Origin: Kappaphycus alvarezii
Taxonomy: Eukaryota; Rhodophyta; Florideophyceae; Gigartinales; Solieriaceae
Assembly (NCBI GenBank): GCA_002205965.3
Contig: NADL03000659.1
Coordinates: forward strand, 864,049-928,048
DNA length: 64,000 nucleotides
Direction of reading: 5' to 3'
The translations under genes were made by a program, and so were the position numbers. This document shows positions 21,951 through 60,140 of the stretch, in pieces. A model generated the notes under the pieces. That model was not told where the DNA came from, did not search any database, and was given only the letters and a program-made list of their open reading frames with translations. Position 1 is the stretch's first letter; each line of letters opens with the position of its first letter.

Positions 21951-23267
21951 AATCGCCCCGATTCTTGTATCTGTATAGCAGATCTTCACATTGTTTCAGA
22001 CCTTTTTTCTGATAGCCATGAGTTCTCTTAGTCTGCATATCCTTTCCATTTAATGAGATATTTGGGTTTTCCGTGTTGTTTCTTGTGACTGAGAATGGCT
22101 TCGACCTCGTATTCGTCTTGTCCATCTTGAACCTGTATAGGTGGTGGCGGCGGAGTTTCTCGATCAAACGTATCTTCAAAGTACGGCTTGAGGAGACTAG
22201 CATGGAAAGCATTGTGAATTCCTCTATCGATCGTTGGTTGGGAAAGGATTAAACGGTACGTAACTCCGTTTATATCCTCAGATATTTCGAATGGCCCACA
22301 ATACTTCGGGTTCAGTTTTCGAGATCCTGTACCATCTTCAAGAGCTAGTTTTTTTGTGGACAACCAGACTTTTTCACTAACTTTATGAGAAGAAGGTCTT
22401 CTACTTCTGTTAATATACGATGCCGTTGATTCATATGATTTCTTGATTTGTTCTTGGGCTTTTTGGAGTGATTCTTGCATATTCTTGAGGAACTGTGTTG
22501 CAGCAGGGTTTTCTGCTGAGAGTACGTCCAAAGGGACATTTTTGGGGTGAATTCCATAATTGAGGTAAAAGGGAGAGAATGCTGTGGTTGCATTAACAGA
22601 TGAATTGTAAGCAACTTCGAAGTCTACCAAATATTTGTCCCAATCTGACTTGTCGAAGCTAACAAAAGATCGAATCATTTCTTCGATCTTTCTGTTCACT
22701 ATGTCGGATTGGCCATCCGTCTGTGGGTGATACGCTGAAGAAAGGGATATTTTGGTACCTAAAAGATTGAACAGACTATTCAAAACTTGCTCATAAAAAT
22801 AGAATCCCTATCACAAATGATTTTCGTCGGAATTCCGTGATTTCTGTAGATGTGATCCTTGAACAGCATGGTAGTTGAAGGTGTACCTAATTTTGGCTTG
22901 GTGGGGATAACACGAAGCATCTTTGACAGCCTGTCAACGACAGTTAAGATGCCACTGTTTCCTTTTTTTGACTTTGGAAGTGGTGTAATGAAGTACATCG
23001 TTATGTGCGTCCATTTGGTTTTCGGTGGGTCAAGAGTTTGTAGAAGACCTGCAGGTTTCTGATTAGATGGTTTGTTACTTTGGCAGTGACAAGAATGAAC
23101 GAACCGAAGGAAATCAGCACGTAGGTTTTCCAGTACAACTTCGGTGATATTCTATTGATTGTTTTGGATATTCCTAAGTGTCCAGTATTTGGAGTCGAAT
23201 GGTAGTCATGCAACAACTTGACTTTAAACGCTCCTTCTGGTATGCAAATTTTTCCTTGTCTTAACAA
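21951..23267 (-). pseudogene. Chromovirus integrase with C-terminal chromodomain
   Basis: Zinc module: LLHDYHSTPNTGHLGISK, then in a shifted frame VHSCHCQSNKPSNQKPAGLL. Core: GNSGILTVVDRLSKM (first Asp), TKIICDRDSIFMSKF (second Asp), and AYHPQTDGQSDIVNRKIEEM, where the usual catalytic Glu is Asp. The GPY/F-like part reads LNPKYCGPFEIS and ends FHASLLKPYFED. A chromodomain follows (EYEVEAILSHKKQHG, PKYLIKWKGYAD), interrupted by TAA and continuing ENSWLSEK. Chromodomains steer such integrases to methylated-histone heterochromatin. A frameshift near 22,783 separates zinc/core halves. Confidence 0.85.
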
Positions 23268-23273
23268 AAGCGA

Positions 23274-24682
23274 TCAATTTCTTTCGAAAGGTGCTTTCGG
23301 ATCTTTGTATTCGTCTTTGAAGCTTTCATCTCGATGGTAGTCTTTTACAAGCTCTTCGAGATCGGATGATTCAAAAAACGGAACAGAAATATTGTTTGAT
23401 TCCGAAGATGTCTTCATTATTAATTCTTGGAGTAGCTCCTTGTTTCGATGGTGGGGTGAGGGTACATTCTGGGGTTGTCTTGAGAGGGAATCGGCAACTA
23501 TATTTGATTTCCAGGAGATGGCTATAATCTTGAAATCAAAGTCAACTAATCTTTCCAACCATCTAACCTGTCTCTGTGACAGATTATATTGTGTCTCGAG
23601 GTATCTCAATGGGTAGTGGTCAGAATGAACAGTGAAAAAGTTCCCATACAAGTATGCTCTCCACCACTTTAGGCAGTCAACAATGGCCAATAGCTCTCTT
23701 TCGTGGGCTGCATAATTCTGTTCGGCATCATTTAAAGTTCTGGATGCGAAAGCGACTGGTCTTTTGTCCTTCGCGGTTCCTTGTTCCAGTACAGCACCAA
23801 GCGCGTATTGGGATGCATCTGTAGTAACATAGATCGGTAGACTTGAATCGACATTTCGATGGACTGGAGCGTTGCACAATATTTTCTTCAAGGTTTGAAA
23901 TGGTTTTTCTTGAGTTTCTGTCCAATGAAAACAAACGTTCTTTGTCAACTCGGTAAGTGGTTTCGAAATTGAGGAACAACCCTTAATGAACCGTCTATAA
24001 TTGTTTACAAACCCTAAGAATGACTGAAGATGTTGTTTGTTCTGAGGCGTCGGCCATTCCATAACGGCTTTAATCTTGTTAGGATCCACAGAAATTCCTT
24101 TCCGGTATATGATGTGCCCAAGATACTTTACTTCTTTACTACCAAAGACACACTTTGACAATTTCGCGAATAACTTTTCCCTTCTAAGGATCTCCAATAC
24201 TTCAGCGATGCATTTCAAATGTTCTTCCCATTTCTTACTAAATATAAGAATGTCATCCAGATATACGATAACAAAAACGCCAAGTACATATTTAAAAATG
24301 TCGTTCATATGGCCCGTGAAAGTCGCTGGGGCATTTTTCAATCTTAATGGCAATACCAGAAATTCGAGATGTCCATATCGAGTTCTAAATGACGTGAGGG
24401 GTATTGAAGATTCATCCAGTCTGATCTGATGATAGCCTGACCTCAGGTCTATTTTGGAGAAGTACTTTGATCCTTTGAGCTGATCAAATATATCGTCTAT
24501 TCGTGGCAGTGGATAACTGTTCTTTAAAGTAAGCCGATTGAGTGCTCTGTAATCCACAAAAATCCGCAATGAGCTGTCCTTCTTCGTCACGAAGAGAATT
24601 GGGGCTCCTCACGGGCTCTTGCTTGGTCTAATGAAATTACTCTCCAGAAGCTCATCTAACTGCTTGCGAAGTTCCGCCATTT
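23274..24682 (-). pseudogene. Chromovirus reverse transcriptase and RNase H
   Basis: From MAELRKQLDELLESNFIRPS the frame is interrupted only by TGA where the family has Trp (SP-W-GAP) at about 24,612. It then runs 438 codons. Fingers: VDYRALNRLTLKNSYPLP; motif A FSKIDLRSGYHQI; motif B LRLKNAPATFTGHM; intact YLDDILIFSKKW; connection LQSFLGFVNNYRRFI. RNase H: YVTTDASQYALGAVLEQG, YAAHERELLAIVDCL, TVHSDHYPLRYLETQ, ending NIVADSLSRQPQN. All RT and RNase H catalytic acids are present, so one base change would restore a complete-looking frame for this segment. It is the best-preserved retroelement gene here. Confidence 0.92.
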
Positions 24683-24867: not shown

Positions 24868-25350
24868 TTAGGGTCTCACAAGTACTGCATATGTCCTATA
24901 ATTTTTTTCTAAATCAGCTAGTATTGAATTTACGGAAACGAAAGAATTCAATAGCCTTTCATTGGCAGCAATAACGTAATTTTCGTCCTTATAATTGAAT
25001 GAAACTTGATTTTCGGCGGTGTCGATAATCGCTTTATGGGATCCGCACCATTCTTTCCCAAGGATTGCATCATACCTCTTCAGGGGGCTTATGGCGAAGT
25101 ACAGTAGTTCAGTGTATTTCTTTATCTGGACGATAACAGGATGCGGTGTTTCCATTAATTTTGATCAACAAAATTCGACATTTCGGCAAGTTCTTCTGAT
25201 TCTTAGGTTTTATTCTTATGGTGATCGCAAAATGATTTGCTGAGGAAATTAACCTCACCGCCGGGTCGATGAGGATTTTAGCTGGTCCGTAGGAAATGAA
25301 TCCTTCAATAACAAGGTGTACGCGGTGGTTACGTTGGAAGGTTGGGGTCG
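24868..25350 (-). pseudogene. Chromovirus aspartic protease
   Basis: HRVHLVIEGFISYGPAKILID holds the active-site strand. The catalytic Asp is followed by Pro-Ala-Val instead of Ser/Thr-Gly-Ala, so the active site is damaged. After a frame change at about 25,150, YDAILGKEWCGSHKAIIDTA matches the D-x-I-L-G-x-x-W-L segment of chromovirus proteases. It lies between gag and RT as expected. Confidence 0.7.
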
Positions 25351-37430: not shown

Positions 37431-39625
37431 TTGATACAGGGGTTGCTTTTCTTTTCTTTGTCTTTGTTCTCGAAAAATGTTTACTACCCCATATCTAGGA
37501 ATGCGTTGCCTTGCTGTGCGATTGCTACAGAAACCAATGGGTGCCGACATGATCGACAAGCGGACCTGAAATCAAATTTTAGAGGCGGAGTAGTTGTGGA
37601 AAGTGAGAAGATGATGATATGTATTCAGATTCTCTGCTTCTTTTTCAGGGCACTAGAAGTTCCCGCTGAAGTCCCTGTTGAGCAGCGATCATTTTCAGTC
37701 AGTGAGAATGATGAAATTTGATACGAAGTTGGGAGCGAGCTACTGGATAGGATTGAATATGAATCATTGCGGGAATGTCTCCAATCGGACTTAGGGGATG
37801 GTTTTGTGCTGAATAATTTCAAAACAATGTGTGGAATGGCATAAAAGTATTGAACTGAATTTTAGTGCTACAAATTGACGAAACCCAAGAAGGAGGCAGG
37901 CTTTTCCAAATGAAGTATCCAATGAGGGCTTTCTTTCCAGAGGACACATTGTTCTAGAAGAAATTCTGATTTTGGCACCTTTTGTATTCCGCATGGTTCT
38001 TCATGGAATGAGGTGAGGTTTCTACGCTTCATAGAGCAGCGAGGCAGTTAAGAATCTATGTACCGGGGAGGTCTCCTTGGGCATGATTCAAGACGGGGTG
38101 ATAGACGTGGCGTTTAATCTAGAAAGCCCCCAGAATAGTGCAGTGGCGGTTGTGCTACCGGCATGGACAGTTCAGAAAACACGACTACTTTTTCCGTTTG
38201 AAGAGTCCAATAGATCTCTACAGAGCCTCCGCAGAAGCTTTTACACTACGTTGTTATATCCAGAGACGCTAGGTTTAAGTACAGGCAGAGGTCGAGCTGG
38301 GTTTCCATTCACTGGGTTGCAAGAGGAAGGGATTCGGAAACTGAGGGCCTATTCTAAAAACTGATCTATGGAATTTAACCGTGGGCAAACTGTCTATGAT
38401 GGTGCTGGAAATGCGCTAAAAGGTGCTATTCATAATGCCTCGGCACTGATTTACGAGTGGAAATGTTTGCAAAGCTGTAGGGATAGTCGAGAGAAGGTCA
38501 AAGTGAAAAAAAGTGAGGCGCAGCGTTTGAGTAGCTTTGAGAACTTGTTGCATAACGCGGAGCGATGAGAGGTCGCTGTTAGAGATCGGACACGTTTGGA
38601 GTCCAAACAGAACTGTTGGAGGCTCGCAAAGGAGGGGTAGAAAGTCTTGATGCCATCATACACTTACTCCGGATGAAAGAGAATAAAATGAAGACGACCG
38701 TAATGGGGTTTTAACTTTGCTTCGTCGATCATCCTGAGCAGCGGTCTTGGTTTCTGAGCATTCCGATTTGGGATATGGGATTCCACAGAGCAAGAGGACT
38801 TTTGATATATCACTTTTACAGGTGACTTTGATTCCATGCAAGGATTTCATGCAGTTCAATGCGACTGTAGAAAATGAATTTCTCATGAAAGCGCACGCAT
38901 GGTACAAGCTGAGCCGTGCGTGAGTTGCGCAGCACAAACTTCCTGATATTGATGGACGCACTGAAATGTATCTATACTTTCTCTGGGAACTTCCGCATGA
39001 TAAGTCTATATCTTTTGGCATACTTGCGTGTAGGTCGTTTTTAAGAAGTGCAAAAATGTTTGTTCACTCAACATCTTGTATGAAGGAAAACATGTACCCC
39101 CGAATTCCCCGCGTTTTTGAGTCTGTGCTTGGGTTAGACATTTCATATTATGAGTTTAGAATTCCCAAAGTGATAATGTCTTGGCTTATAGCGAATGAGG
39201 GACCACTTGAGTGGGTGGTGGATAATAGGATTTCAGGATCAGGGACGCTTCTCACTTCCTTGTGTGAAAGCCCTAGATTGATAGAGCAGGCTTACTGTAA
39301 TCTAGATTCCGATCTTGAAATACCGTACCGGCTCTCTTTTGAATTCAGACGAGAAGCTCATGTATATTCATTGCAAGTTATGGGTCCAGCGTTTCAGAAA
39401 GGCATTACCGCGGATATGCTTCAACAAAGGACCACTGACGAAATCTTACATGGTATTTTCTTTATTTCGTCTGAACATGAGGCCAAAATGACGATGTGGG
39501 GCACGGCTGCATTTGTAGCTGCATTGATTGTAAGCTACTGCGCTGAGTTAAGATTAGGAGATTTTAATGTCAAAATCATAATCAGAATCTCCCCTAGACG
39601 CCATGTGTTTGTCCCCTATAAATAA
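37431..39625 (+). pseudogene. Unrecognised protein-coding remnant in three frames
   Basis: Consecutive plus-strand frames (37,431-37,721; 38,077-38,568; 38,80x-39,625) are each rich in ordinary, non-repetitive residues and abut at shifts, as in a decayed single gene. The longest (38,966-39,625, 219 residues) reads YLYFLWELPHDKSISFGILA early, then IMSWLIANEGPLEWVVDNRI and PYRLSFEFRREAHVYSLQVM, and has a C-terminal hydrophobic stretch (AAFVAALIVSYCAEL). No family recognised. It could belong to the same large element(s) as the genes at 42-51 kb. Confidence 0.35.
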
Positions 39626-40589
39626 TCAAAGGCCGGGGTAGGTCCGACATCAGAAACAATAATTAAAAGAGCACATACAGAGGGGGGAGGTTTATTGGCG
39701 CTCAGCAAAATATACTTGGATTCTACTGAATTTTGCACTTTATTCGTAACTGTACAAATATTTTCCTGCAATTTGGAGGCAGGGATATCAATAAGCATTG
39801 CCCTCGTCCAATAATATTTGTCGATCAATTTCATAAAAAAATGTTATGATACACCTGCGCTTGCACGCGTTTGTACCGGGCCACACTTATGATCGGTCAA
39901 GAAATGTCGAGGCGTGGGAGGGAATGCTGATTGGACGGGGCCGAGACCGCGAGGTAAGGGGCGAATGCTGATGGGAGGTGGGCAGGAGCTCTCATTCAGG
40001 CATAATAATCTCCTTCATCGGGGGTAGGTCCAGGTACATCGGTTGTAAGTCCGCAGTGAGGTTGATATTGTGCGAACGTGCACAGCCCGTAAGTTGACCT
40101 ATAACTTTTTGCATGAGGTCAATGCTTCTCCCACCATATCCGCGTGGCGTGCTGTAGGTTTTGTAGAATAGCATATAGAAAGTAAAAAAGTATTTAAGGA
40201 TTAGTAGAGTTGAGGTAGAGAGAAAACGAGGATACAAGAAACGAGAAAGCATGCTGCAGTGGAGGTTTAAGAGGTGAAAAGAAAATGCAGACCGAGCTGT
40301 CGGATTAGCTTCGTGAACAGACAAGCCAATTTTTACTGAATTTTGAAACCAATTTATGAACCATCGCACAAAGCTCTCCTGGATCGCGCTTGTAAAACCC
40401 CATGCAGATCATCAGTAGACAGTTTGCGGAAAAGCGAAATTTTGCAACTATTCTGTAACTCCATATTTAGCACGAAAATTTGAGCATTACCTGCACAGGA
40501 GTGTGCTCGTAGGGAAAATCACATATACAGTTAGCAGCGATGAGTATTAGACATGAGTATTACAGACCTACACCGCCGTGTAAAGAATT
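39626..40589. other. No gene recognised
   Basis: A 125-codon minus-strand frame (40,369-39,992) is open and contains TPRGYGGRSIDLMQKVIG, but there is no family match. The stretch 39,880-39,990 is GC-richer than its surroundings. Confidence 0.3.
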
Positions 40590-41330
40590 GGGGTTTTTTT
40601 ATGGGTCTTAGAGGGTCTAAGAAGGTTCAAAGTGCTTTAGTGTGAATAGAGGACTTGAGGCTCTTTAGAAGACTAGGGGTTTACTGGTGTTTGGAAACTG
40701 GCGATTAGGGAGTTTATGAGAATAACTTGGTTTTTTTAGTGGTTTTAGGGGTTTTCACCACTAAGGGGTTGTATGAAAACACGAAACTAGGGGATTTATA
40801 ACAATTTTTTGCTTTTATGGGATTACTGGTTTTACTGGTTTGAGGGATTTAGGGATTGATAAGGTTAAATTGCTTTTAGAGGATTGGTGGCCTTATTGGA
40901 ATAAGGGACTAGGGAATTTGTAACGATAAAGTTGTTTTAGGTTTAGGTGTTTTAGGGGATTTTTATGAATAAATTTCTCTACGGGACTTGTTGTCGTAGG
41001 GTAGCTAATGAACTTTTTGGGTAATCTTATTAGGAGATATATAGGAGATTATGGGAATAAGGGAGTATGGAATTTGTGAGATTAGGGATATAGGATTTTA
41101 AGAGGATAGAATTGATGAAAGGGGTTTATCATGTTAGGGAACTATATTATTCTTGGTTTTAAAGGTTCTTAAAGGCTTTGGTATTAAGGAGCCCAGGTGT
41201 TTTTGGATTAATGTAATAAGAGGTTGAAGGGATATGGTTGATATTTCTTTGTCAATTTTTAATGTAGGGAGTGATTCTGTAGAGAGGATCTGTGACTTTA
41301 TTGTGCTTTGATATTTTTGGTTTTGTCAAA
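40590..41330 (+). repeat. G/T-rich tract with TTTAGGG-like words
   Basis: More than 20 words of the form TTTAGGG, TTAGGGA, TTAGGGG or GGGATTTA occur in degenerate, irregular spacing on the plus strand, with long reading frames absent. Composition is strongly strand-asymmetric (G and T over C). It resembles degenerate telomere-like or subtelomere filler. It is not a clean telomeric array. Confidence 0.55.
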
Positions 41331-41504
41331 ATATGCAATGGCTGTAGGACAACGTTTCGAGATGGAAGATCTTACGAGGACTCTCCTAGTCTTTTAATGA
41401 AATGCAAAAGAGGAAGGGATTATAAATAGATTATAAAATATTATACGACATTTGATTAGACAGAGTAGGTTGTGTGAATGTACTGTATTTATGAATGGTG
41501 CGAG

Positions 41505-41514
41505 TGGTATAAAA
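41505..41514 (+). promoter_or_regulatory. Possible TATA box
   Basis: GGTATAAAAT lies about 75 bases upstream of the ATG at 41,587. Spacing fits a short leader for the small basic ORF that follows. Confidence 0.4.
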
Positions 41515-41586
41515 TTTGGGATTTATTTTGAAGTTGAGAGTGTCGGCGGAGGATAAAAAAAGACGACGCCGAATTCCGCATTTTCA

Positions 41587-41973
41587 ATGGAAGGAGGCGA
41601 AATAGGAACTTCGGATGATTTGGATGTCATAGAGGAAGCTATTGGAATGGGACGTGTTCGTGGAAGGGAGACAGGCTGGGATGAGTATATTAGTGAGTCT
41701 GACTCTGATTTTACTGGGGAATCAATCAGACGGCGTAGGTTTCAGCTGGTAGAGAAAGAGGCGAGGAACGTGTCCGGAGGGGGATGTAGGAAGAGGAAAA
41801 ATTGTGGGAAAGGGAAGAAAAGGCGGATGGAGGGAAGGGTTCGTAGGGAGATTAGAAAGGAGTCAAACGGTGGAGAACGGTGTGAACCTGTGGTGGGAAG
41901 AGTTCTAGATGGGAAGAAGCGAGAGAAGAAGAGGTACTGGGTGCGAACGATGTTGGCTTACGGGAGAATTTGA
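41587..41973 (+). CDS. Basic 128-residue ORF, unknown
   Basis: Starts MEGGEIGTSDDLDVIEEAIG, has an acidic patch (SESDSDFTGES), then a Lys/Arg-rich middle (CRKRKNCGKGKKRRMEGR) and ends KKREKKRYWVRTMLAYGRI. The final KRYWVR-like motif is reminiscent of the N-terminus of PIF/Harbinger nucleases, where a basic stretch leads into R-Y/F-W-V. No nuclease domain follows, so the link is weak. A possible TATA box precedes it. Confidence 0.35.
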   Translation: MEGGEIGTSDDLDVIEEAIGMGRVRGRETGWDEYISESDSDFTGESIRRRRFQLVEKEARNVSGGGCRKRKNCGKGKKRRMEGRVRREIRKESNGGERCEPVVGRVLDGKKREKKRYWVRTMLAYGRI

Positions 41974-42380
41974 GCAGAGAAAGGAAAGATGAATATGTGA
42001 GGGAGAAAATCTAAAGGACTGGGAGGCTAGAACGTGATATTTGGAGTGGATTGTACTCCCTGTGCCCAGGCGTCCGTTTCGGAGCAGTAGTGGTAGAGGT
42101 GGAGGGGTTAGTTGCGGAACTGGACAATGACCGTGAATTTTGAGAAGGATATAGGAAAGGTAGGGGGTGTGGACTGTATAAGTAAATGATTAAGAGAATA
42201 GAAAGGAAGAGAAAGGTTTGAGTAGAATGTGATAAGAAACTATTTAATGGATCCTGTGGATTTAAAAAAGAGTGATTGAAGTCAGGGAGAGTAAAATAGG
42301 ATACAATGGGTCAAGTGTGTGTGAGTATTGTTTCATGCAAGAAAGGGAAGATATCTGCAAGACCTAAATAGGTGGAATCG

Positions 42381-45300
42381 CTATGGCCAGCTAGTCAAGA
42401 AACATATCAAGAGGTCGTATGGAAAATTTGTGTTATGGGAATTGCGGTTTGTTTCTTGAATTTTTGATAAGGATTTTCCCAGGCGATGATGAATATTTGG
42501 ACGAGCACTTAGAGAGGGCATTGACGGTTGCCATAAGTGCCTTTTGGATGGAGATGGAATCAATGGAGAGTATGGATGGAGCAGCGAAAAACAGCCTTAA
42601 TTTGGGGGTTCCTGTTTTGATATTGGGACAAGAATTTGCCATGTGTGCTGTGCCAGTGCAGCGGACGCAAAATCCTTTGAAACATGCCTTGAGCTCAACA
42701 GAAGAGCAATGTCTCACCATGTTTCTAGTTCGGATAGTACAAATTGAGCAACATTGATTGTAGGTTGTAGCGAGTTATTGGAGATAGTCGGCAGATTCCT
42801 TGCTTGATTTTGAGGAGCGAGATGGGAGGGCTGAAATGGTTTTGAGTGGGGACACGGTTGTGGGGATGGAAGGGAAGGTAATTTCCCTGTTGTGTTTGGA
42901 AGGAGGGGGGTGAGAAAGTTGTGAAGGCGGTGGAGGTACATTAGGGGGTTAAAAGTTTGATGTTTGGGGAAGGTGGTACATATGTCGTAGCACTACAGTT
43001 GGCGTTCAGTTCAACTTTGCTTGCCCACAACTCTGTCGAGGAAAGAGTCAGGTAACCATCTGCGACATTGCTTGTGCGATCCAGAAATAGTATTGGTTGA
43101 GCCAAAGAGCTGAGACTCATTAAGGGAAGTGTGAGAGGATAGGTGTGGAGATTTGTCTGGGACGAAGAGAAAGGTCTCCTGAGTACTGGTGAGAAGGGGT
43201 GGGAGTGATTTCCGTTTGCCTGGGAAAAGTTGAGTAGGATGCTGTGGGCTGGCTTTCCGTCTCTGCCTGCGCGGCCGCTTTCTCAGCAGAATTAGGCGAA
43301 GGAGTCTCGTTTTATGACGTGAATAAATGCAAGAACGATTGGAATATCGATACTGCAACCATATACACTAGTGGCAACCATGATATGTGCGCGAAACTCA
43401 TCAACATCTACCCAAGCGTTGAAGTTGTCTGTCTTGGTCTTTTCATCCAATTTTCAGTAGTAATATGTAGGGGAGGCGGAGGGAATTAAATACGATAAAA
43501 GGTTTGCGAGGGACTCTAGAGATATCTTGTATTGACAAAAACAATGGGATGAGCTGGAGGATGTTGAAATTCGAAGACGAGTTGTTCGACCTCTGCGGCG
43601 GTTTTGAGTGCGGGAGATGAGCTACTCGGTACACGATTGATAAGATACCAGATGTTATTCCGAGTTGTAGAAGAACGGAAGACCTTGTAATTGTTGAGAC
43701 CGCAGGCTTCAGCTATATTTTCGGTGGCTGAAAGGGGCGATGTGGCGGAAGGAGCGATGATGGGGCCAGTGACTCCGGCGGGTCTAATATTTTAGTGCAG
43801 TAAAAGTGGTACTCATCGATTTAGACGTCGTAAAGTTTTCCAAGAAAAGAGCAATCTCTGATGAAAAAGGCGTGGTCGTCACATAGGGTGTGCTCAGCAC
43901 TGCAGATGACTATTCTTTCAGTTGCGTTATGTTGAGTTCCCCACCTCGCGCAATCTTTTCCAGCGGATGAGCACCTTCGAATCAGGTCTCACTGGAGAGC
44001 GATGAGCGGAACGATGACGATTACTTTGTTCGGATGCATGTAGGCTGGAAGTAGAAAGGTGAGTGTCTTCCCCCCTCCTGTACGAAGGATGATGAGGGCA
44101 TCTGTCGTTGGGTCCCTTTCAATGCTACAGCCCGTTTCTGCATGAGAGTACGAAAGGTTGCGGAGGGGTTGTTGAGGAAGGTCTTGGAGACGGTGAAGAT
44201 GTCTTTGGTTTTTCGTCGTTTGGATGAGGGCTTGGAGGAGAGATCTCGTCGTTGGTCTGAATCAAGGGAATTTTTCGAGGAAAGGATTCCTTGCTCGGTA
44301 ATCTTGTTGTAAATGTTCTCGACGAGAGCATTGGTTCTCATAATAAAGGTGAGGCACTTTAAACAAGCGGAAGAGCTGTATTTGGCATTACTCTGGGGCG
44401 CTAAAATTGCTTTGCTGTTAGGGCTGGGATTTGTTCTTTGAGGTAAAAGGTGGTCCATATTTGCGAAGATTGTTTCTGTGTGGAGTAGGGAGGAATGAAG
44501 AAATGTAGCCCTAGGGCTCGATACCAAGCCTCCGACCCATTTCGACATTGCTCCAATTGAGATTTAGTTAATTGCCGCATCTCTAGAAATAAAACACCGT
44601 AGATTTGATGGGTAGTGTCGTTATTGTGGCCTGCTTGTAAGTGAATAATGTTAGAGAGTTGATCTTCACCTTCTGTGACGTGAGCGACGAAATTTTTCAC
44701 GGCTCTGGCGTGGTACTGACGGTACTGACTCAAATTGAAGGTGACGATTGCGGATTTGAGACTAGAAGTGATTTTAGTCCTCAGTTGTTGAGGTTTGATT
44801 GGAGCTCCATCTGCTATGAAAAGCATGTCCAAACAGCTCTTTGTGCTCTCCGTGGTACCGGAAACTGTCAACAAGAGTGCGTTTTCAACGTGTCGAACGA
44901 CAAGGAGGTACACGAGGAGGAAGCAGTATGTGACGACGTCAAGAAACCGAACGATAGGTTTTGAGAGTCCCTTTTGAAGGGCACGAGCATTGTTGTAGAT
45001 ATTGGCCTAGAAACGTTTGCCTTTGGAAACAAAAATATGGCGCGAAGCTGAGACAAAATTTCGTATTTGGATGACGCTAGCTTCAGTGCCGCGGTATAAA
45101 ACACCTCAGCACACTTACAAATGCGCTTCAATAGAATTTTGAAGGTTCTGGCAGAAAGATAAGTAGTCCTAGGCTTCTTCGATGCGGACATGCTTGTCGG
45201 GAGAGAGTATTTTAGGTAGGAGATAGTGAAGCAAGCGATTTTGCCAGAGATTATAAGTCTTCTCGCTTGCGGAGTGCATTCCAAGCCATTATCTAGGGCT

Positions 45301-47072
45301 CCTATCGTAGATAGCGCCCTAGATTTGGGAGCAGGCGGCCCAGAAATCAGCGGTGATGGGAAATGAGGCCAGCAGTTTATCATTGAGTAGATTCCATGCT
45401 TGGAGGGGGTTCCATGCTTGGAGTTGAGGGTCCCTCATAGATTTGTCGAGTGTTAGGATTTCGAGTTTATGGCCATCTAGGACTCCAAAAAAGGGTTGCG
45501 GGGACAAACAATAAAGGTAATCTTGTGTGTTTCTGCAGAACGCAGATAATTGCCGACTTTGAGATAGAACTCAATGTACATGATGCCAGTGTCCGCCATT
45601 TACGAAGTTTCCTCCTGAAATTTCTTCCATTTTTTTGGCCTTTCTTTGGCAGGGTGGCAGCAGTAAATATCCATGACAATAAAGGTCCTTGAGAGATACC
45701 TCAGAGCTGCAAGCAACGGGGGCAATTCGGATGCACTTTTGAATCGGAGTGGTTGTTGCTGTGTTTCCCCTAGGACGGCAGAGCAAGAGAGGAAGGTGGG
45801 AATGACCCCTTGAATAAAAGAGTCCGTGGTACAGAAAAAGACGTCAGAAATGATGCTGTGTAGCAATTGTGCGGCTTGATCCTTATTGGTTTTCTTCTAA
45901 AGGACGAGGGAAAACTCATTTAACTTCTGTGAGAGGGAGGAATGGAAACACTCATGTAGTTTTCCATGGCAAGGCTCGGAGGAAACCCTGGAGAGGAAGA
46001 ATGAAAGTCGAGCCGAAAGGGACTCATTGCGGGCAGGAGGTTCTTCTTCAACGGAAAAGCCAGTTTTGCACCGAGGTAATTATGAGCACGTATTCTCGGA
46101 TGATTCCGAGTGAGTTTCCAGACACGTCTCCTGTAGTCCGAAAGAGAGGAACGTATTGCCGTAGCAAGGTCAGTATCCACCCAGGTGACGTATTCGGAAG
46201 CTTTTTGTAGGAATAAGGAAACGTTTAGGAGGTGGTCATCAAAGCAGAGCTCTGGGAGGTAAGGTTCCATGGAATTGTAATCTTCGGGGACAAATGCGGA
46301 AGGGGTGAGCAGTTCAATGTTCTAATTCTATTGAGAAAATGAGATAAATGATCGGTTTTGTTGAAGACGGCGAAGAAATGAGTGTTTTTACCACCGAAAA
46401 TTGTTTGAGCCTTCACGGGTATCGAAAACGAGTCGTTGAGGGAAACTTTCTTGACATGGTCTCTGACATAGCGTTTGAGCGCAGTTATTGCTTTTGATAT
46501 GAAGAAAAAGTGAGCGCACTGGAAGAAATTGTGGATCGGTACACTGGAAACGGTAGGCAGGGGGGTAGTTTTGTCGAAAACAGCATGTGTGGCTCCAGCA
46601 ACTGGATACAGATCACGCATGGTGGAAGTGGGGCTTTCATTTGCCTGTAGAGCCTCTTTTCAACGAATGCTTGAAATTTTTGAGCTGTTTCGGCGCTAAC
46701 AGAGTGACCAACTCGAAGGTGACGAGAAAAAAATTCACTTACAGCGCACTTTTGCAGGGGGAGTGTTGCAAATTGCATGGTAAATTATGGGACCGAAGGA
46801 GATATTGGCAGTTGGAAGAGAATTCTTGGAAGCAATCATGGTAATAGATACGATAATGGCTCGTAAGAGGAATGTGAGAGGAGTAAATCAACAGGAAGAG
46901 GGGGACTGGAAGGGTGTTTTGAGAACATGGTTGCGAGGAAGGAGAATATGTTGTGATCTGAAGGGGTAGGAGCCTCCTTCAGTGCTAGAGGTGAATTGAA
47001 AACCAATTCAGCTGCAGTGTGGAGCATTGGTTCAGAACTTATCGCTTTTAGCGGGAAGAATCTGTGGAGCAC
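42381..47072 (-). pseudogene. OrsD-like / tyrosine-recombinase-like / RecQ helicase gene, decayed
   Basis: N-terminal zone (47.07-46.2 kb): RHLRVGHSVSAETAQKF, QCAHFFFISKAITALKRY (eroded C2H2) and FSIPVKAQTIFGGKNTHFF, the pattern of fungal OrsD (DUF3505) proteins. Middle: SASELPPLLAALRYLSRTFI (45.7 kb), then YRQYHARAVKNF and LQAGHNNDTTHQIYGV (44.71-44.60 kb), recalling the recombinase C-terminal G-H...Y box. Helicase: ILRTGGGKTLTFLLPAY (motif I, about 44,065-44,090), VIVIVPLIAL (Ia), IDEYH (II, 43,806-43,820), APSATSPL (III), VFRSSTTRNNIWYLI, PIVFVNTRYL (IV), HIMVATSVYGCSIDIP (V), ESGRAGRDGK (VI, about 43,255-43,280). A Cys-rich tail includes CFKGFCVRCTG. Stops at II, IV and VI plus several shifts show decay. 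In fungi such helicases repeat near telomeres. Confidence 0.82.
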
Positions 47073-47842
47073 GAAAGTAGAAACAATGGAAGGGAATGTG
47101 TATAGGCTCTCAAGTCGGGGTCAGGCTATGATAGAGCGGGTACTTGAAGATATGATCCCATGACGGCCAATACCTCGGTCACTACAAGATGGTTTGAGAT
47201 TAAGGATTTTTACGTTAAGAGTGATGGAAGAAAATCCTATTCTCGAAGGCTCTGTAGACACGTGGGGAAGGAAGATGAATTTGAAAGTAATGCGAACGGA
47301 GCAAAGAATTACGGAAGGTATGGGATGTGGAGGATAGTGACAGGAGCGATGGGATGGTGGGTAAATTTTAAACTAACCCAAGGACCTGTTTGAGACCTGC
47401 CGAACACGCGAATATTCGAAATTCACATAATGCAAATTTTTGTCAATGCATATGACAGTGTTCAGTATGTGTACTATAGAGGTAGAATGTTGGTCGACCG
47501 ACCAGAAATTTTAGGCCAACATTATTGATCAAAATTTGTGGCCCGAAAATCTATGCGTTTTAGCCACCCCGGAAACTGTTGAGGTGCCTGATGGCACTCT
47601 TCTTCCCTATCATATCGTGACTCAGGTTTCGGCATGGTACAATTTGCAGGAACGGGAACAAAAAACTAGGACAATGGATGGAATGGGGAAATTAGAAGCA
47701 GAAAATGTTCATTTTGCTACATCAATATGGATAAAGGTAAGTAGGTCGTTCTTTCGCATTGATGGTGTTCATTATAACATTTAATCTTCTACGAAACACT
47801 ATGAGAGTGATAAAAGCTATTTTAATGAACAACAAACCGATA
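47073..47842. other. Spacer between the helicase and methyltransferase-SET genes
   Basis: About 47,488-47,560 is a hairpin-prone stretch (GTCGACCGACCAGAAATTTTA and following) resembling the MITE-like units at 51-52 kb. Two small plus-strand frames (47,160-47,393, 47,536-47,784) show no family. Confidence 0.35.
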
Positions 47843-48358
47843 CTAAAGTTGATCTACGGTACCAAAGAAATCTGGCTTGACGTAGTCCAAGTTAAGCTCT
47901 TCTCCAGCGTTGATAAGACGCGTAGAGGTCACTGTAAAGGCTTTGTAAGATATGAGGGAGTCTTTTGAGATAAAGCCTTCATCCTGTGGTAAAATAATGC
48001 AGTTTTGGGCGTGTGGGTTCTGCAAAACTTGATTGTTGAAAAAATCAAGTTCCTCGTCCTCAAGACCGTACTTCCAATCATTGGTGAATACCGAGACGCA
48101 ATAGAGAGAAGGGACGATGCAGAAGGATTTATTCCCATCAATGAGAGTACGAATTCAATTGAACTGTGATCCCTCGACTGGCACTTTAATCGCGTATGTC
48201 AAAAACGGTTATGGTCCACTCCTAATATTTCCCGACCGTAGAGCTTGAGAGAATTATTTCTTGTAAACAAGTCGTGGTAGACCACGGTACCGTAGTAGAA
48301 CGAAATTTGGGTACTCTGTTACAACGTTCGGGCTGCATGGACTCCCAGACCCGCATTT
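47843..48358 (-). pseudogene. SET domain (histone lysine methyltransferase-like)
   Basis: Begins NAGLGVHAARTL, stop, QSTQISFYYGTVVYHDLF, the G-x-G and Y-x-G-x-hydrophobic core of SET. LKLYGREILGVDHNRF follows; after a shift, LTYAIKVPVEG and LIDGNKS; then NDWKYGLEDEELDFF, HAQNCIILPQDEGF, and YKAFTVTSTRLINAGEELNL leading to DYV (the G-E-E-L-x-x-D-Y motif that holds the catalytic Tyr). The usual N-H-S-C motif is only partly visible (AQNC). One in-frame stop and at least one shift break it. No pre-SET or post-SET Cys cluster was seen. Confidence 0.78.
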
Positions 48359-48673
48359 GGGTGCTTGATTCTCGATTTTGCAACAATGGGTTAAAATAAA
48401 GAGCCTCTGCGCGTAAAAGAGCGGAACAGTCAAAAGTTTGTATGACTCATTGATAGCGACGTTTGGAGGTAGGTTTGAACATTGGATGAAGATGCCTGGG
48501 TCCTTGGCTTCGAAAGCAAGAGGAGCACCTGTTGACTAAGGGAGTTTTTGGAATGGAGGAAATCCAGGTGGATGTTCCCAGCCTTTTTCTCGAGATCTGA
48601 AAGGAGCTTGAGGTCTACGCAAACGTAGAGCTACGTCAAGGTGATCTGAGGATAGGCAAGTGTCGGTTACTCC

Positions 48674-49540
48674 CTAAACGACAGCTTGGGAAAATGCTTC
48701 GATGGCGAATATTTTTGCAGTCTTGAAATATTCCTTTTCCAGCGCACATCCGACGAAGACGCGATGAGCAAGGAGATTGAAGCAGAACTTGGCAGTGGCA
48801 AATGTACCGGCGAAGAGGTCAAGGATTAAATCATGGGGTTGAGAGAAACGGAAGATGGGATCTTGAAGGGTTTCGATAGGTTTTTGTTCGGGTCTGAGCA
48901 TAGTTCAGCCTCAAAAACAGGCCTGCGTCTTCAATGAGACTCATTATCATGGCAGTAGGCACATTTTATTGTTAAAGACGTTTCGATAGGCTAAGAAGTT
49001 GGATCTGACGAAGTTGAAGTTCCGTTAGCTGCCCATAACATCTTCTCATGCTAAAGGTAAACTTCATGCAGTTTATTTCTAGACATGCAGGGCGAATTCG
49101 GTAGCGCTGCTGAGGTAATACGATATTCGGACTGGATTGATCTTCTTGAATGAGGGATGATTAGGAAGGACGATGGGAGACTTGGACGCCATAAAGATAT
49201 TATAATCACTTTCATCATCGTCTCTGGTGTATGTAGTGAATCCACGCTTCCAGCAGGGGAATGTACCTGCGGTACAGAATATAATCGCATGTCCGACATT
49301 TCGAAGAGCGAAATCGCCGACTCGGACTCCTTCCATCATATCACTTTTCGTGAGTGTGTCGTAGGGGTTCTTCTCGGGGTTGCGGGCTCTCCGGACGTTG
49401 TACGGGGTGTCTGTTAGGAAAAGATGCACTGCTTCTTCTATGCTTGTTCCGGAAATGACCTCGTGGCTACCCAATATGTTTGTGAAAGAACATGTATACA
49501 TCGAGCACCACTCCCGCATTGACTCGCGAAGTAGTTTCAT
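48674..49540 (-). pseudogene. DNA N6/N4 methyltransferase domain
   Basis: EAVHLFLTDTPYNVRRARNP (motif IV at about 49,414-49,400) reads D-T-P-Y where the family has D-P-P-Y. NVGHAIIFCTAGTFPCWKRG follows as the next strand. A stop-ridden 180-base stretch separates this from PEQKPIETLQDPIFRFSQPH and LILDLFAGTFATAKFCFNLL (motifs X and I, about 48,890-48,790), then RVFVGCALEKEYFKTAKIF. The K-P...L...LDLFAG-T and G...E..Y pattern is that of the N6_N4_Mtase family, common in bacteria and phage and rare in eukaryotes. DPPY favours adenine-N6 but does not exclude cytosine-N4. Confidence 0.8.
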
Positions 49541-51140
49541 TGTGACCTCTTTGTCTTGGTTAGAAATGCTGGAAGAGATAGCAGCGGAGGAAATAGAGTT
49601 GAATTGTGGTGGATGAACGGGGGCGGATGAAGAAGATGAGGGAAGCGGGCCATCAGAGTTTGTAATGTCTTGGAGAGGCTTTTGGGATTATTGACGCATG
49701 TAGTTCCAGACGGTTCTGGCCAACGGCTGTGTGTGACAATCTTTTCAACCGACGTGGAACTACGCCATAGCTTGAGCGGTACTCGTCCAGAAATGTGCAT
49801 TGATGGGGAAGTTACAATGTATACAAATCGGATGACCAAGTAACTCTGAAGATATCCTCTGGGAAATGCTGGAGTAGCTCACGCAAAGCGTTTTCAACCT
49901 CTGCTAGTAGTTGCACCGGGAAAGGAGCGAGTAGTGAGGTATTGAGAGTGAGCTCTACGTCCAATTGAGGATTGGGACGATGGGAGAGTGGGACGTAGCC
50001 ACCATCCCGGTTGTTGACAATCGACGGTTGAAATGAAGGGTATAGGAAACAAAGGTATGTGGCGGCCATTTCCAAGATACACAGAAAACGAGGGAGGTAG
50101 CAAAACTGTCCCATGCTTTGACGACTGATTTGATACCATACGCAGTCCTTGTCGACTTGTTGAGTGGAGGTAGGAAAGTTGCGTCTTGACTTGCAAAGAA
50201 TCGAGATAATGTTCCGGATCTCCTTCGCTTGATACCGGTTCGGCCAGAGAAAGTGGTGGTAGCATCAATGGAGGAAGTTATTTGTGCAATGCTGGATAGA
50301 AAAAGTAGCTCCTGGAATTAGGTTCCACCGGAGGTATTAAAGAGGTCCTTAGTCGTTGCTTGTTTTTGTCTCGCTCCACAGTCTGTGAGAAAGGAGCAAA
50401 TGAGAGCTGGGACGCGAAGAGGGATTTCATTGGATACAATGCTTCTGCAGAATGATATCACTCGCAAGTCTTCTTGACTGCGCAGTATCATTCCTTGAGC
50501 TACAGGGTAGGTACGCATATTGATATTTATTTGTAACACATCCCGTATAGCATTGCTGTTGTAGTTAGATGGTTTACTTGGAGATACGACAACTTGTAGA
50601 AAGGCCGAAATCGTCATGTTAATTTGTGAGTCAGTCTAGTCGTAGAATTTGTTACAAAACGCTTCGCAAAAGGCTGAGTACGCGAGGGTATCATTTCTTT
50701 CGGAAGATGAAACGAAGTATTCGACACAGCTAGCTGCTTTTTGGACAAAGAGTCTTGTTTCCCCATGGCGGAGAGAAAGTAAATGTAGATGAAGCACACA
50801 GAACAGTTTCCAGAAAGAGGAAAATGGCCTTGACGAAAACAAATCAGAATGGAAAAGAATGAAAATATGGTAATATGGGGCTTAAAATAATGACGTAGAG
50901 AGAAATGAAGTTAATGAACTATGATGAGTAACTTTAAGGGAAAATGGCCGAAGAAATAGATACCATTCATACAGAATTTTATCATGTGATATGCTCATGA
51001 ATATTAGGAGGATTGTTTGTACAATAGTGAACTAATACGTTTACGTTAGGTAAATTAGACAAAACAAATTATTTTCGTTCAACGAGCGGGGTTAGCCGTG
51101 CTAAGAAGCGGAGTGCTGAAAATGTACTGCTTTGTATATT

Positions 51141-51230
51141 TTTGGATCAAGGATTTCTGGCCAAAATTCCTTGGTCAAAAATCCTAGTCGACCGTCCTTA
51201 CCAAATCTTATAGTGGTGCTCTCATTAAAT
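51141..51230. repeat. MITE-like unit 1
   Basis: TTGGTCAAAAATCCTAGTCG, ACCGTCC, TACCAAATCTTATAGTGGTG. The same ordered motifs (CCTAGTCG, GCCGT, ...AGCAAACCTTACAGTG) occur at 52.2 kb, and a shorter version at 51.98 kb. The left part forms an inverted pair around GGATTTCTGGCCAAAATTCC. Confidence 0.55.
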
Positions 51231-51859: not shown

Positions 51860-52160
51860 GTATGTACTGTACATGCACTGTAAAGTACATACAGTACTTC
51901 AGTGCAGTATAGTACTGTACAATAGAGTGGAGTACAGCAGCGGGCCGGAGGGGACGGCCGTTGCCCAAAATGTTGGTTGGCCGTGTATAGCAATCTTAGA
52001 GTGGAGCCGTCAATGGCTGCACTGTAAGTGCACCGTGATGAACAGTAATGTACAGTAGTGTAATCATTGCACAGTACTGTACACATTGCAGTGCTTTGTA
52101 CTGTAAATGCACCGTACTGTACATGCACCCTACTGTATATACTATACAGTACAGCAGCTG
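51860..52160. repeat. TACTGTAC-rich palindromic repeat and MITE-like unit 2
   Basis: The words GTACTGTA, TGTACATGCAC, CTGTACA and CAGTAC occur about 20 times, on both strands because they are near-palindromic. A MITE-like unit interrupts them (51,940-52,020: GGACGGCCGTTGCCC, then TTGGTTGGCCGTGTATAGCA). The array starts again after the unit, so the unit may have inserted into it. Confidence 0.6.
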
Positions 52161-52262
52161 GACGGGGAGTGACGGCCGACCAGGATTTTTAGGCAAGGAT
52201 TTTGAGATAAAAATACTTGGACTAAAATCCTAGTCGGCCGTTCATAGCAAACCTTACAGTGA
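52160..52262. repeat. MITE-like hairpin unit 3
   Basis: CGGCCGACCAGGATTTTTAG (52,173) and CTAAAATCCTAGTCGGCCG (52,212) are inverted repeats with a 20-base AT-rich loop. The right end continues TTCATAGCAAACCTTACAGT as in the other units. No coding capacity, so a non-autonomous element moved by an unidentified transposase is likely. Confidence 0.65.
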
Positions 52263-52977: not shown

Positions 52978-53085
52978 AAGCTTTGAACTCGTAATCTTAG
53001 TAAAGCTTTGTTTCTGTATACAAGACCTCTAGCTTTAATACTTTCCTCCATTTCTTTCTTCTATCGGTCTTTTTCACAACATTGC

Positions 53086-53356
53086 GATGAAGTTCTCCGT
53101 TCCATATTGGAACAACACTATGAAGATCATCCTCAAGTGAGAATGCAAGATGTGCGAACAATCTGTTCATTACAATTGCGACTGTGGACAAAGAGAGTAT
53201 CCCAAGGATGCGGCGTCCCACAAGGATCGAGTTTTAGATTTCGTGGTGTGCTCAGTGGACTGCTGGAAGAAAGAATTTTTTTGGCGGGATAGCAATGATC
53301 GGAAGTTCTGCGGATTTAATTTGTGCTTGTTGAAGTCTGAGAGTGGAGTTAATTAA
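53086..53356 (+). pseudogene. Small Cys-rich protein, broken
   Basis: ATG at 53,086 (MKFSVPYWNNTMKIILK) reaches a stop after 17 codons. Reading resumes directly after the stop (frame 53,150-53,356) with CKMCEQSVHYNCDCGQREYP, KDAASHKDRVLDFVVCSVDC and WKKEFFWRDSNDRKFCGF. The spaced C-x2-C, C-x-C, H and C-x3-C could bind zinc, in the style of the Cys clusters seen in some fungal transposon proteins. No exact family match. A further frame at 53,421-53,729 may be its continuation. Confidence 0.4.
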
Positions 53357-53420
53357 GAGACTGCGCAAAGAAGAGGTATCTTGGACGAAGGAGAGGGTTG
53401 CGGGTAGAAAGTGAAGGAAA

Positions 53421-53729
53421 TTGGTTCTAGAGAGATTGAAGGTGACAAAAAAGTTGAGCTTATTGCGGTTTCAAAGACCCCTAATGTCGTATCGGAGTGA
53501 ATTTTGGACAGTTGTCACAGCTCTTCACGAGATTATAGACGTGCTTATGGATACTCGGCGACCGGAATCTTTTTGCAATATTGTTTTGGATGTTTCGGGA
53601 ACTCAATGCGCTTACGCATCATTAAAAGTTCTCAGGATCTTTAGTTATTCTTTCAAAGGGGCCACTAGTCGAGTACTGCCTTTAATGTGTCGGAAGAGTT
53701 ACCTTTTCCACAATGTAAAAGCATTTTGA
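53421..53729 (+). CDS. Unknown 102-residue reading frame
   Basis: MVLERLKVTKKLSLLRFQRP, then YRSEFWTVVTALHEIIDVLM and FKGATSRVLPLMCRKSYLF. Not recognised. Its position suggests it belongs with the small Cys-rich gene just upstream. Confidence 0.25.
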   Translation: MVLERLKVTKKLSLLRFQRPLMSYRSEFWTVVTALHEIIDVLMDTRRPESFCNIVLDVSGTQCAYASLKVLRIFSYSFKGATSRVLPLMCRKSYLFHNVKAF

Positions 53730-59499: not shown

Positions 59500-60140
59500 C
59501 ACTTGTTTCTAACTGACATGATGTAGCAATGGTAAAGAGATTTTTTCCTCTACAAGGCTCATAGAACTTGAGCGTCATTCTAGGCTCTATTTCTATAAAA
59601 ATGATCATGAAATCTATCACAAACGGCAGGGTTTTAGCGTATTTATTACAACAAAGAGATTGTAGTTTGCCATTCCTGGTCTTACTTGCAAAACAATGAT
59701 CATAAAGTCTACCTTGCATGGCCTTGAAATTTCAGTTCGGAATGAGAGAATTTGGAGCGAGCCGTCATTTCTGCATATTGTGTTTTGAAAGAAATGGCAG
59801 CGAAGATCATCTGGACATATTTCTATCTGACATGATTTCACCATGGAAAAGAGGTTTTGGACAACAACGACTTTCTGTGAAATACAAAGTCTTTCCCGGT
59901 TCTGTTTACATAAAAATGACCATAACGTCCATCATATACGGCTTTAGGGTTTTAGGGTTTTTTTTCACCATGCAAAAGAGGTTTTGGACAACAACGACTT
60001 TCTGTGAAATACAAAGTCTTTCCCGGTTCTGTTTACATAAAAATGACCATAACGTCCATCATATACGGCGGGGGATTCGTAGTGTGTAATTTTCGGTTCT
60101 ACTTCCAAAAACATGTTCATAACGTTTAAATAAAACGGCC
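59500..60140. repeat. Tandem repeats of about 130 bp
   Basis: TTCACCATGNAAAAGAGGTT ... CATAACGTCCATCATATACGGC is present almost identically at 59,838-59,942 and 59,967-60,068 (offset 129). Related but diverged units end at about 59,625 (ATGATCATGAAATCTATCAC), 59,715 (ATGATCATAAAGTCTACC) and 60,137 (ATGTTCATAACGTTTAAAT). The two inner copies are far more alike than the rest, so one duplication is recent. Confidence 0.75.

Follow-up and report, generated by a model that had tools for sequence, protein, structure and literature searches.

The window, by which we mean the whole 64,000-nucleotide stretch of Kappaphycus alvarezii DNA analysed here, carries a decayed copy of a gene that joins a DNA methyltransferase (MTase) to a SET domain. 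It is accompanied by the remains of a downstream helicase gene and of a divergent upstream gene. The features are as follows, with HMM positions referring to a profile of the family.

53051..53479, plus strand: remnant of a divergent upstream gene, 50% identical to P0024
47843..50766, minus strand: decayed copy of the joined MTase-SET gene, in ten collinear pieces (HMM 57-980 of 984)
49818..50620, minus strand: family-specific N-terminal region (HMM 57-319; E 1.5e-14, 1.1e-6 and 4.4e-7)
48677..49594, minus strand: beta-class DNA MTase domain, motif IV (DTPY) before motif X/I (E 1.3e-40 and 1.2e-29, family profile)
48539..48670, minus strand: conserved linker between MTase and SET, W..P.G.P..Q..P (HMM 706-750, E 0.0014; alignment)
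47861..48387, minus strand: SET domain (HMM 805-980), N-terminal half in a different frame (family profile, Pfam, sequence comparison, key residues)
42314..46612, minus strand: decayed downstream gene, a region with tyrosine-recombinase-like motifs recognised by eye, followed by a RecQ-type DEAD/Helicase_C helicase (placed by tblastn with P0025 and P0022)
39614..50983, minus strand: part of the repeat unit collinear with genomic copy C168 in a single alignment (83.4% over 11.5 kb)
39614..39619, minus strand: right end of the unit, ATAGGG, common to the window copy, C168 and C523 (within one base); the sequence beyond differs

The joined gene and its two methyltransferase-type domains

The window gene comprises ∼960 codons, with a possible ATG at 50,766. 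The 984-position profile, which represents 18 relatives, matched ten minus-strand pieces between 50,620 and 47,861 in order over positions 57-980, with E-values from 1e-40 to 1e-3; the best unrelated piece of the window reached only E 0.5. An earlier note, made from the letters of this DNA, had proposed from three pieces that a DNA MTase and a SET domain form one gene. The ten collinear pieces bear this out, as does the presence of both domains in single predicted proteins of all 18 relatives, and the gene extends 5′ of those three pieces (HMM 57-319 at 50,620-49,818). The motifs that the note named also lie on the minus strand where it placed them, in the beta-class order of motif IV and then X/I. 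TDTPYN (in 49,687-49,082), KPIE...LDLFAG (in 48,904-48,677) and GEELNLDY (in 48,154-47,846) share one frame, and GLGVHAAR and YYGTVVYHD fall in a neighbouring minus-strand frame (48,390-48,202).

The copy is broken, as the note had also recognised, by several in-frame stops and frame changes. Gaps between the pieces equal the profile spacing to within a few codons, except at a poorly conserved hinge (85 positions versus 74 codons), so no intron is required and introns in place of decay were rejected. Decay of the RIP type was likewise rejected, since by two dinucleotide indices the gene is no different from the window.

On the sequence evidence, the family MTase is a beta-class, phage-related enzyme. 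Pfam N6_N4_Mtase matched the window's motif X/I piece at E 8.4e-9 and gave no match to the motif IV piece by itself; on a read-through of the window the match covered positions 1-220 of 221. Motif IV reads DPPY in all 18 relatives but DTPY in the window, and the window copy is therefore probably non-functional. The nearest folds to the family MTase are the N6-adenine enzymes M1.HpyAVI, M.BceJIV and CcrM, and we consider N6-adenine the likely predicted base rather than N4-cytosine.

Pfam SET on the window's C-terminal piece alone gave E 0.021, under the gathering score; the window SET pieces matched the family profile at 2.1e-16, 6.5e-10 and 7.5e-5. Among ten members with scores listed, five (P0004, P0006, P0008, P0010 and P0015) exceeded the gathering score and five fell under it. 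The closest sequence is KMT2C, with KMT5A and EZH2 also similar, and judged by these comparisons the domain is of the eukaryotic KMT2/KMT5A/EZH2 type. SET domains of the KMT2C type are usually associated with active chromatin; the note had suggested that the chain could couple two silencing marks. A chromatin protein is the probable substrate of the predicted enzyme.

Another reading is that the SET part has become a binding or structural domain that has lost lysine methyltransferase action, so that the DNA mark alone matters. The MTase is indeed more strongly conserved than SET (mean pairwise identity among the relatives 0.43 versus 0.34), P0009 has lost the SET key residues, and where SET domains usually have an Asn-His motif, 17 of 18 relatives have Asn-Asp or Asn-Glu. 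However, the key residues (GxG, Asn and the C-terminal Tyr) are retained in 17 of 18, and Pfam SET (PF00856) is matched by 16 of the 17 relatives scanned at E 0.1. We regard loss of activity as a real but minority possibility, and retain the reading of SET as a second writer.

A family of joined proteins

In each of the 18 relatives a single predicted protein, 592-1,450 aa long, carries both domains. The earlier note had held that its proposal would fall if relatives always encoded the domains in separate genes; instead, these 18 are joined, and within the window's own genome nine of the 11 copies that we examined carry both MTase and SET parts. A Pfam scan for both families returned N6_N4_Mtase (PF01555) in 17 of 17 and SET in 16 of 17 scanned relatives at E 0.1. 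The broken window copy and its weak match to Pfam SET alone might be taken as a chance or chimeric assembly of two unrelated adjacent genes. This is refuted by the ten collinear pieces, and the relatives, which differ widely (13-77% identity by region), share the same architecture and linker; the gene also recurs within the genome. We give such an assembly practically no credence, and the joined MTase-SET protein is almost certainly a real family.

Phylogenetic analysis places the 18 relatives in a single clade (bootstrap 100, SH-aLRT 100). The closest row to this clade is the ParB-type methylase P0021, on long branches. The tree omits four of the 29 open frames from prokaryotes and viruses, in which no PPY motif was found, and P0020 was omitted from the alignments used for structure prediction and Pfam. 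The N-terminal region is largely helical in the predicted model of P0015. In prokaryote loci from GTDB, all 17 matches fall in the MTase range only. When the SET parts of seven family proteins were compared with 27 prokaryote and viral loci, six gave no match; rows obtained with P0011 reflect MTase sequence inside the cut and were not used. An IMG/VR scan with the SET part found no relatives among 64 stretches.

The family shares its beta-class MTase with the ParB-methylases of phages and prophages, which combine a ParB fold with PF01555. Such ParB-MTase fusions are described as frequent in phages in the available text of one report (PMC12704722). The best PHROG was phrog_67 in five of five family members scanned. 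A ParB-like N-terminus was indicated by PHROG in P0011 (E 2e-5) and weakly in P0013 (0.027), and in none of the other three. A ParB fold of P0011 could not be accepted on structure, as the predicted model was too poor (mean pLDDT 60), and the alignment of P0011 with P0021 is confined to the MTase part. No SET match was obtained in the prokaryote and viral loci examined, whereas the present family has SET and a family-specific N-terminal region in addition.

Two further groups of eukaryotic enzymes invite comparison. The available text on bdelloid rotifer N4CMT describes a PF01555 MTase with a chromodomain in a eukaryote (PMC8885841). N4CMT and the present family thus both join a PF01555 MTase to a chromatin domain, and N4CMT appears at rank 22 among the fold matches. 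N4CMT, however, reads histones and writes DNA (4mC), whereas in the present family a second, predicted writer domain takes the place of the reader; a chromodomain is absent among the nine Pfam families matched by 17 members. Fungal writers of 6mA, given as the MT-A70 complex, METTL4 and MetB (PF02384) in the text available (PMC13297926), likewise methylate DNA amino groups but belong to other families, and none described there is a PF01555 domain joined to SET. The literature searched held no description of an MTase-SET fusion and no paper with both PF01555 and PF00856.

The repeat unit and its neighbouring genes

The MTase-SET gene occurs at about 18 places in the window's own 336-Mb genome. 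In seven genomic copies homology extends far past the gene, mostly at 80-97% nucleotide identity, and includes the RecQ-type helicase gene downstream. The unit is at least 13.9 kb long in the window. Of the 11 copies examined, C523 carries both domains but is rearranged, in C267 the match ends at the start of SET, and C450 shows no SET match within the 5 kb examined. All 11 are broken or incomplete, and consequently no working copy is known in this genome.

The downstream gene adjoins the MTase-SET gene in this genome, its P0025 part in all seven copies and its P0022 part in six. In a less broken copy, P0025 and P0022 match DEAD (E 1.4e-15) and helicase Q5 (E 7.8e-29). The tyrosine-recombinase-like motifs were recognised by eye only and gained no support from further comparisons, including a search for relatives with the recombinase-like piece (0 of 607 candidates). 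Pfam found no recombinase family, DUF3435 included, in the window parts and less broken copies scanned, which did not reach the left end of the unit. On the other side, the divergent upstream gene is present in most copies compared, and the stretch 53,425-52,149 has nucleotide homology with C846, C860 and C168 at 67-70%. Two assignments made by eye were rejected: a ParB-like P0024, which has no similarity to P0011 and no meaningful PDB match, and a dioxygenase-like HxD motif in P0023, which has no PDB match.

Neither the left end of the unit nor a target-site duplication was found, and the case for mobility thus comprises dispersal and one end. No terminal inverted repeat was seen. A repeat finder run around the gene, over 40-56 kb, returned three direct families and one inverted pair (34 nt, 74%), none acceptable as element ends. 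A possible left end shared by C37 and C860 shows no inverted counterpart of the right end, and it was rejected because its start falls inside an open frame. Pfam detected no transposase or integrase family on either strand of 43.0-53.0 kb, a scan outside which the left part of the unit lies, and no transposase was found in eight open frames of less broken copies.

The ∼18 places, the flanks shared by seven copies and the sharp end common to three indicate that the gene is carried by a large mobile element present in multiple copies, as the earlier note had suspected in calling it possible cargo. We consider this very probable. A non-mobile host gene family, descended from an old horizontally acquired two-writer enzyme that silences transposons and multiplied through segmental duplications of a genome rich in repeats, would account for the MTase and SET residues conserved over 18 diverse relatives, and bdelloid N4CMT, used by its host for transposon silencing according to the text available (PMC8885841), is a precedent. 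Such a family is highly improbable given so many places in one genome with every examined copy broken or incomplete, flanks held in common as a unit with one shared end beside differing sequence, and the same downstream gene in all seven unit copies. Instead of a transposon, the unit could be what is left of a large DNA virus, or of a virus-like element, that integrated into the genome; this would fit the large unit, the helicase, the phage-related MTase and the long stem that separates the family from the closest bacterial row of the tree. Yet capsid, packaging and polymerase families were unseen in the parts scanned, the left part of the unit lying outside them, and three IMG/VR scans returned MTase-type loci only, or none; we hold a viral origin to be unlikely.

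A mobile element remains the preferred reading, and it has partial parallels. Transposons are known to encode epigenetic enzymes, among them TET/JBP (in KDZ, Plavaka and others) and SET (in HarbingerS and MuDR), according to the available text of one source (PMC12730594). These are likewise mobile DNA with a chromatin or DNA modifier; in contrast to HarbingerS, MuDR and KDZ, the present family combines the two writer domains in a single protein, and Pfam detected no DDE transposase at 43.0-53.0 kb. Starships, in the part of the literature available, are large multi-gene fungal elements classified by their tyrosine recombinase, whereas the present unit shows recombinase-like motifs by eye only, beside a RecQ helicase, and no Pfam recombinase in the parts scanned. 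The Starship captain is a DUF3435 tyrosine recombinase at the 5′ end.

A proposed double writer carried by mobile DNA

The window gene is best explained as a broken copy of a predicted epigenetic-modifier gene carried by a large multi-copy mobile element. We infer a single entry of a phage-type MTase into an early eukaryote or into the mobile DNA of that host; the MTase may then have acquired the SET domain, and mobile elements would have retained the fusion. Intact copies would bind DNA via the N-terminal region and the MTase and write N6-methyladenine on the element, while the tethered SET would methylate lysine on histone H3 or another chromatin protein over the same stretch. Copies of the element might thereby be marked as open chromatin against host silencing; alternatively, together with the helicase, the marks could license replication and movement of the element. 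The direction of the mark left aside, we find this whole chain of origin, element and double writing moderately probable. Whether the mark is anti-silencing rather than silencing is evenly balanced. Only tentatively do we suggest an undescribed class of giant eukaryotic mobile elements that would combine a tyrosine-recombinase and RecQ-helicase protein, a single enzyme writing DNA and histone marks on the same chromatin, and ParB-methylase chemistry from bacteriophages.

The coupling between DNA methylation and histone methylation normally runs through separate proteins, which recognise one of the marks and deposit the other. If the proposal is true, this family would provide the first case of a single chain that writes both DNA and histone methylation, and with both writer domains together the coupling could be tested directly with one purified protein. 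The carrier seems to be mobile DNA of a large kind, of which one 336-Mb genome has several broken copies. The family would show that eukaryotic mobile DNA has put a phage DNA-modification enzyme to new use, and would explain how some DNA marks of bacterial type could enter eukaryote genomes.

The window copy and its relatives

Working from the sequence, the earlier note described a beta-class DNA methyltransferase (MTase) domain and a SET domain joined in one broken gene. Three-frame translation of the minus strand at 50,800–47,800 recovers its pieces: motif IV (TDTPYN), motif X/I (KPIE...LDLFAG) and the C-terminal end of the SET domain share one frame, and the SET domain begins in a different one. 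The copy is indeed broken, with several in-frame stops and at least two frame changes. Pfam N6_N4_Mtase matches the motif X/I piece above the cut-off and, in a read-through of the gene translated across its breaks, the match spans the whole domain; the motif IV piece by itself gives no N6_N4_Mtase match, and the C-terminal SET piece matches Pfam SET weakly (E 0.021). Ten window pieces at 50,620–47,861 match a 984-position profile of the relatives described below collinearly, from position 57 to 980. An eleventh, of 17 aa, scores at chance level by itself (E 5.3), yet is consistent with this order; the next best profile match elsewhere in the window has E 0.5. The spacing between pieces agrees with the profile and requires no introns.

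That both domains belong to one gene is borne out by 18 predicted proteins of 592–1,450 aa (P0003–P0020), each of which carries the MTase, linker and SET region in a single chain. Querying 5.8 billion proteins with read-through residues 370–980, with scoring limited to the 7,990 candidates that had most words in common with the query, yielded at least 11 proteins. A second search with an alignment of these returned nine rows, eight of them new: seven full relatives and P0021, a ParB-type methylase in which SET is absent. Gene prediction in such collections would favour intron-free genes. At E 0.1, Pfam finds N6_N4_Mtase in 17/17 and SET in 16/17 of the relatives scanned (all except P0020), and SET exceeds the gathering score in five of the ten members with scores shown. 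The member without a SET match is likely P0009, given its E of 0.1 in another Pfam scan and the absence of the SET tyrosine. Averaged over pairs of members, identity falls from 0.43 in the MTase to 0.34 in SET, 0.26 in the linker and 0.24 in the N-terminal region. In a tree, the window copy falls inside the family, close to P0003, P0015 and P0016 with weak support, and its motif IV departs from the DPPY present in all 18 relatives.

The window (C655:864049-928048) belongs to a 336-Mb assembly of 884 contigs. We took the host to be a fungus, a supposition based on the chromodomain Gypsy elements and on the earlier note. Searching this genome with a 202-aa MTase piece gave 23 rows, or about 18 places once rows from one copy were joined: the window, six close copies (69–85% identical), one on C267 (37–45%) and ten distant ones (24–34%). 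The profile was applied to 11 copies (C655, C846, C523, C586, C168, C37, C860, C267, C671 at 48 kb, C753 and C450), every one of which is broken or incomplete. MTase and SET parts are both present in nine, including the rearranged C523; C267 extends just to the start of SET, and a SET match is absent within the 5 kb examined in C450.

Origins of the two domains

Prokaryotic and viral matches lie on the MTase side. All 17 loci matched in GTDB genomes (from cyanobacteria, Bacteroidota, one planctomycete and one acidobacterium) fall within the MTase range of the query. Two IMG/VR scans with the MTase gave seven and three loci, and a scan with the SET part gave zero. SET parts of six family proteins likewise produced no row against these 27 loci. 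In an MTase tree of the 18 members and 25 prokaryote or viral rows (4 of 29 were dropped, the PPY motif missing), the family forms a single clade (100/100) on a long stem, and the nearest row is P0021, at a point where long branches meet. The best PHROG for all five proteins scanned is phrog_67; a ParB-like N-terminus is found in P0011 (E 2e-5), weakly in P0013 (0.027) and in none of the other three. Phages frequently join ParB to N6_N4-type MTases, according to the accessible part of one study (PMC12704722). The SET sequence is closest to KMT2C, KMT5A and EZH2. We infer that a phage-type methylase was likely transferred once and gained SET once.

In a fold search with an AlphaFold model of P0015 (mean pLDDT 76, pTM 0.43), the predicted MTase part best matches N6-adenine enzymes, with Adineta N4CMT at rank 22; the best 50 matches are all MTases, so this result concerns that part alone.

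The repeat unit and its genes

Nucleotide comparison of 20-kb stretches indicates that homology between copies exceeds the MTase-SET gene. The window and C168 align in one 11.5-kb block (50,983 to 39,614, 83.4%), and upstream of this, window 53,425 to 52,149 is 67–70% alike with three copies. C846, C860 and C586 are mutually 92–95% alike in blocks of 8–10 kb; at this level C267 has little in common with the unit. From the C860 and C168 parts together we estimate a unit of about 23 kb.

Features of the window beside the MTase-SET gene
46,612-42,314, strand of the MTase-SET gene: downstream gene (P0025/P0022 matches)
53,479-53,051, opposite strand: remnant of the upstream gene (P0024/P0023), 429 bases
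22028-24608, 7395-7979 and 54895-53500: Gypsy-type LTR retrotransposon remains (RT, RNase H, weak integrase zinc finger, Tf2-type SH3 and chromodomain)
51178-51195, 52172-52189, 52224-52241, 25262-25279 and 51967-51984: matches to AAAATCCTNGTCGRCCGT

The downstream gene, on the same strand, has two long frames in C860, P0025 (621 aa) and P0022 (868 aa), which match 7/7 and 6/7 unit copies respectively (C37 being the exception; the source copy is counted). P0022 carries helicase domains (DEAD, E 1.4e-15; Helicase_C, E 4.4e-15) and matches helicase Q5 (E 7.8e-29). Ahead of it we noted by eye R-G-T-E, R-x-x-H and G-H-S-x-x-T-x-x-x-Y, a spacing that we take to be tyrosine recombinase-like; no tool supported this reading of the region. 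By eye, the RecQ-type P0022 (L046:4128-6731) also has a C-terminal knuckle-like stretch (C-x2-C...H...C), which seemed unusual among RecQ helicases.

Upstream, a divergent gene (P0024/P0023) is present in C168, C37, C846 and C860 and was not found in the C586 and C523 stretches compared; no family match was found for either frame. A second copy of its region, 65–69% alike, occurs in C37, C860 and C168. The end of P0023 (L038:4859-6637) contains GGRFLVV...LHTDF, recalling by eye Fe(II)/2-oxoglutarate dioxygenases, and this stretch has no PDB match.

At the right end, the window copy, C168 and C523 lose their match at window 39,614 (C523 one base earlier) and run on into differing sequence. Beyond this point C523 enters a piece of the same gene family, which marks it as rearranged; clean evidence for the shared end therefore comes from two copies. 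The left end was not reached, the C37/C860 match beginning within an open frame, and neither terminal inverted repeats nor target-site duplications were seen, the right end being the sole end reached.

Other repeats occur in the window. The Gypsy remnant at 54.9–53.5 kb sits directly against the upstream limit of homology with other copies. The short repeat AAAATCCTNGTCGRCCGT has five matches with at most three mismatches, against 0.33 expected; it belongs to a partly palindromic repeat of roughly 70 bases, with short matches near other unit copies. A 281-base segment (51842-51564) lies upstream of the MTase-SET gene in the window and, inverted, directly downstream of that gene in C846, C860, C586 and C523; given these differences in position and orientation, it appears to be a small, separately mobile piece. 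Long blocks at window 34104-21463 (73–89%), common with the flanks of the C37 and C523 copies, are probably other dispersed repeats, and 59836-60069 is a tandem array (127-base unit, 1.8 copies, 99%).

Possible function and classification

The protein joins its two domains in one chain, the relatives conserve catalytic residues, and the repeat unit carries a helicase gene. The DNA domain would write N6-methyladenine, the SET domain would methylate a nearby lysine, and the two marks may jointly set the chromatin state of the element. According to the available sections of one paper, TET/JBP enzymes encoded in fungal transposons have been proposed to aid escape from silencing, and SET genes occur in oomycete transposons (PMC12730594). 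On these precedents, and since SET is nearest KMT2C, we lean towards the element being shielded from silencing, or licensed to move, rather than silencing itself, a choice with roughly an even chance of being right.

In full-text searches of a library with few subscription journals, titles and abstract openings showed no description of an MTase-SET fusion. The accessible part of a review of DNA methylation in fungi names as amino-methylases MT-A70, METTL4 and MetB (PMC13297926), that of a eukaryotic 6mA survey mentions neither 'SET domain' nor 'N6_N4' (PMC12695648), and bdelloid N4CMT has no eukaryotic homologs according to the portion available of its paper (PMC8885841). We file the MTase-SET protein with element-borne epigenetic enzymes and phage-type methylases, as a variant. 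Within the family, P0009 keeps its MTase motifs intact and has lost the SET Asn and Tyr, and thus provides a natural test of whether SET activity is needed.
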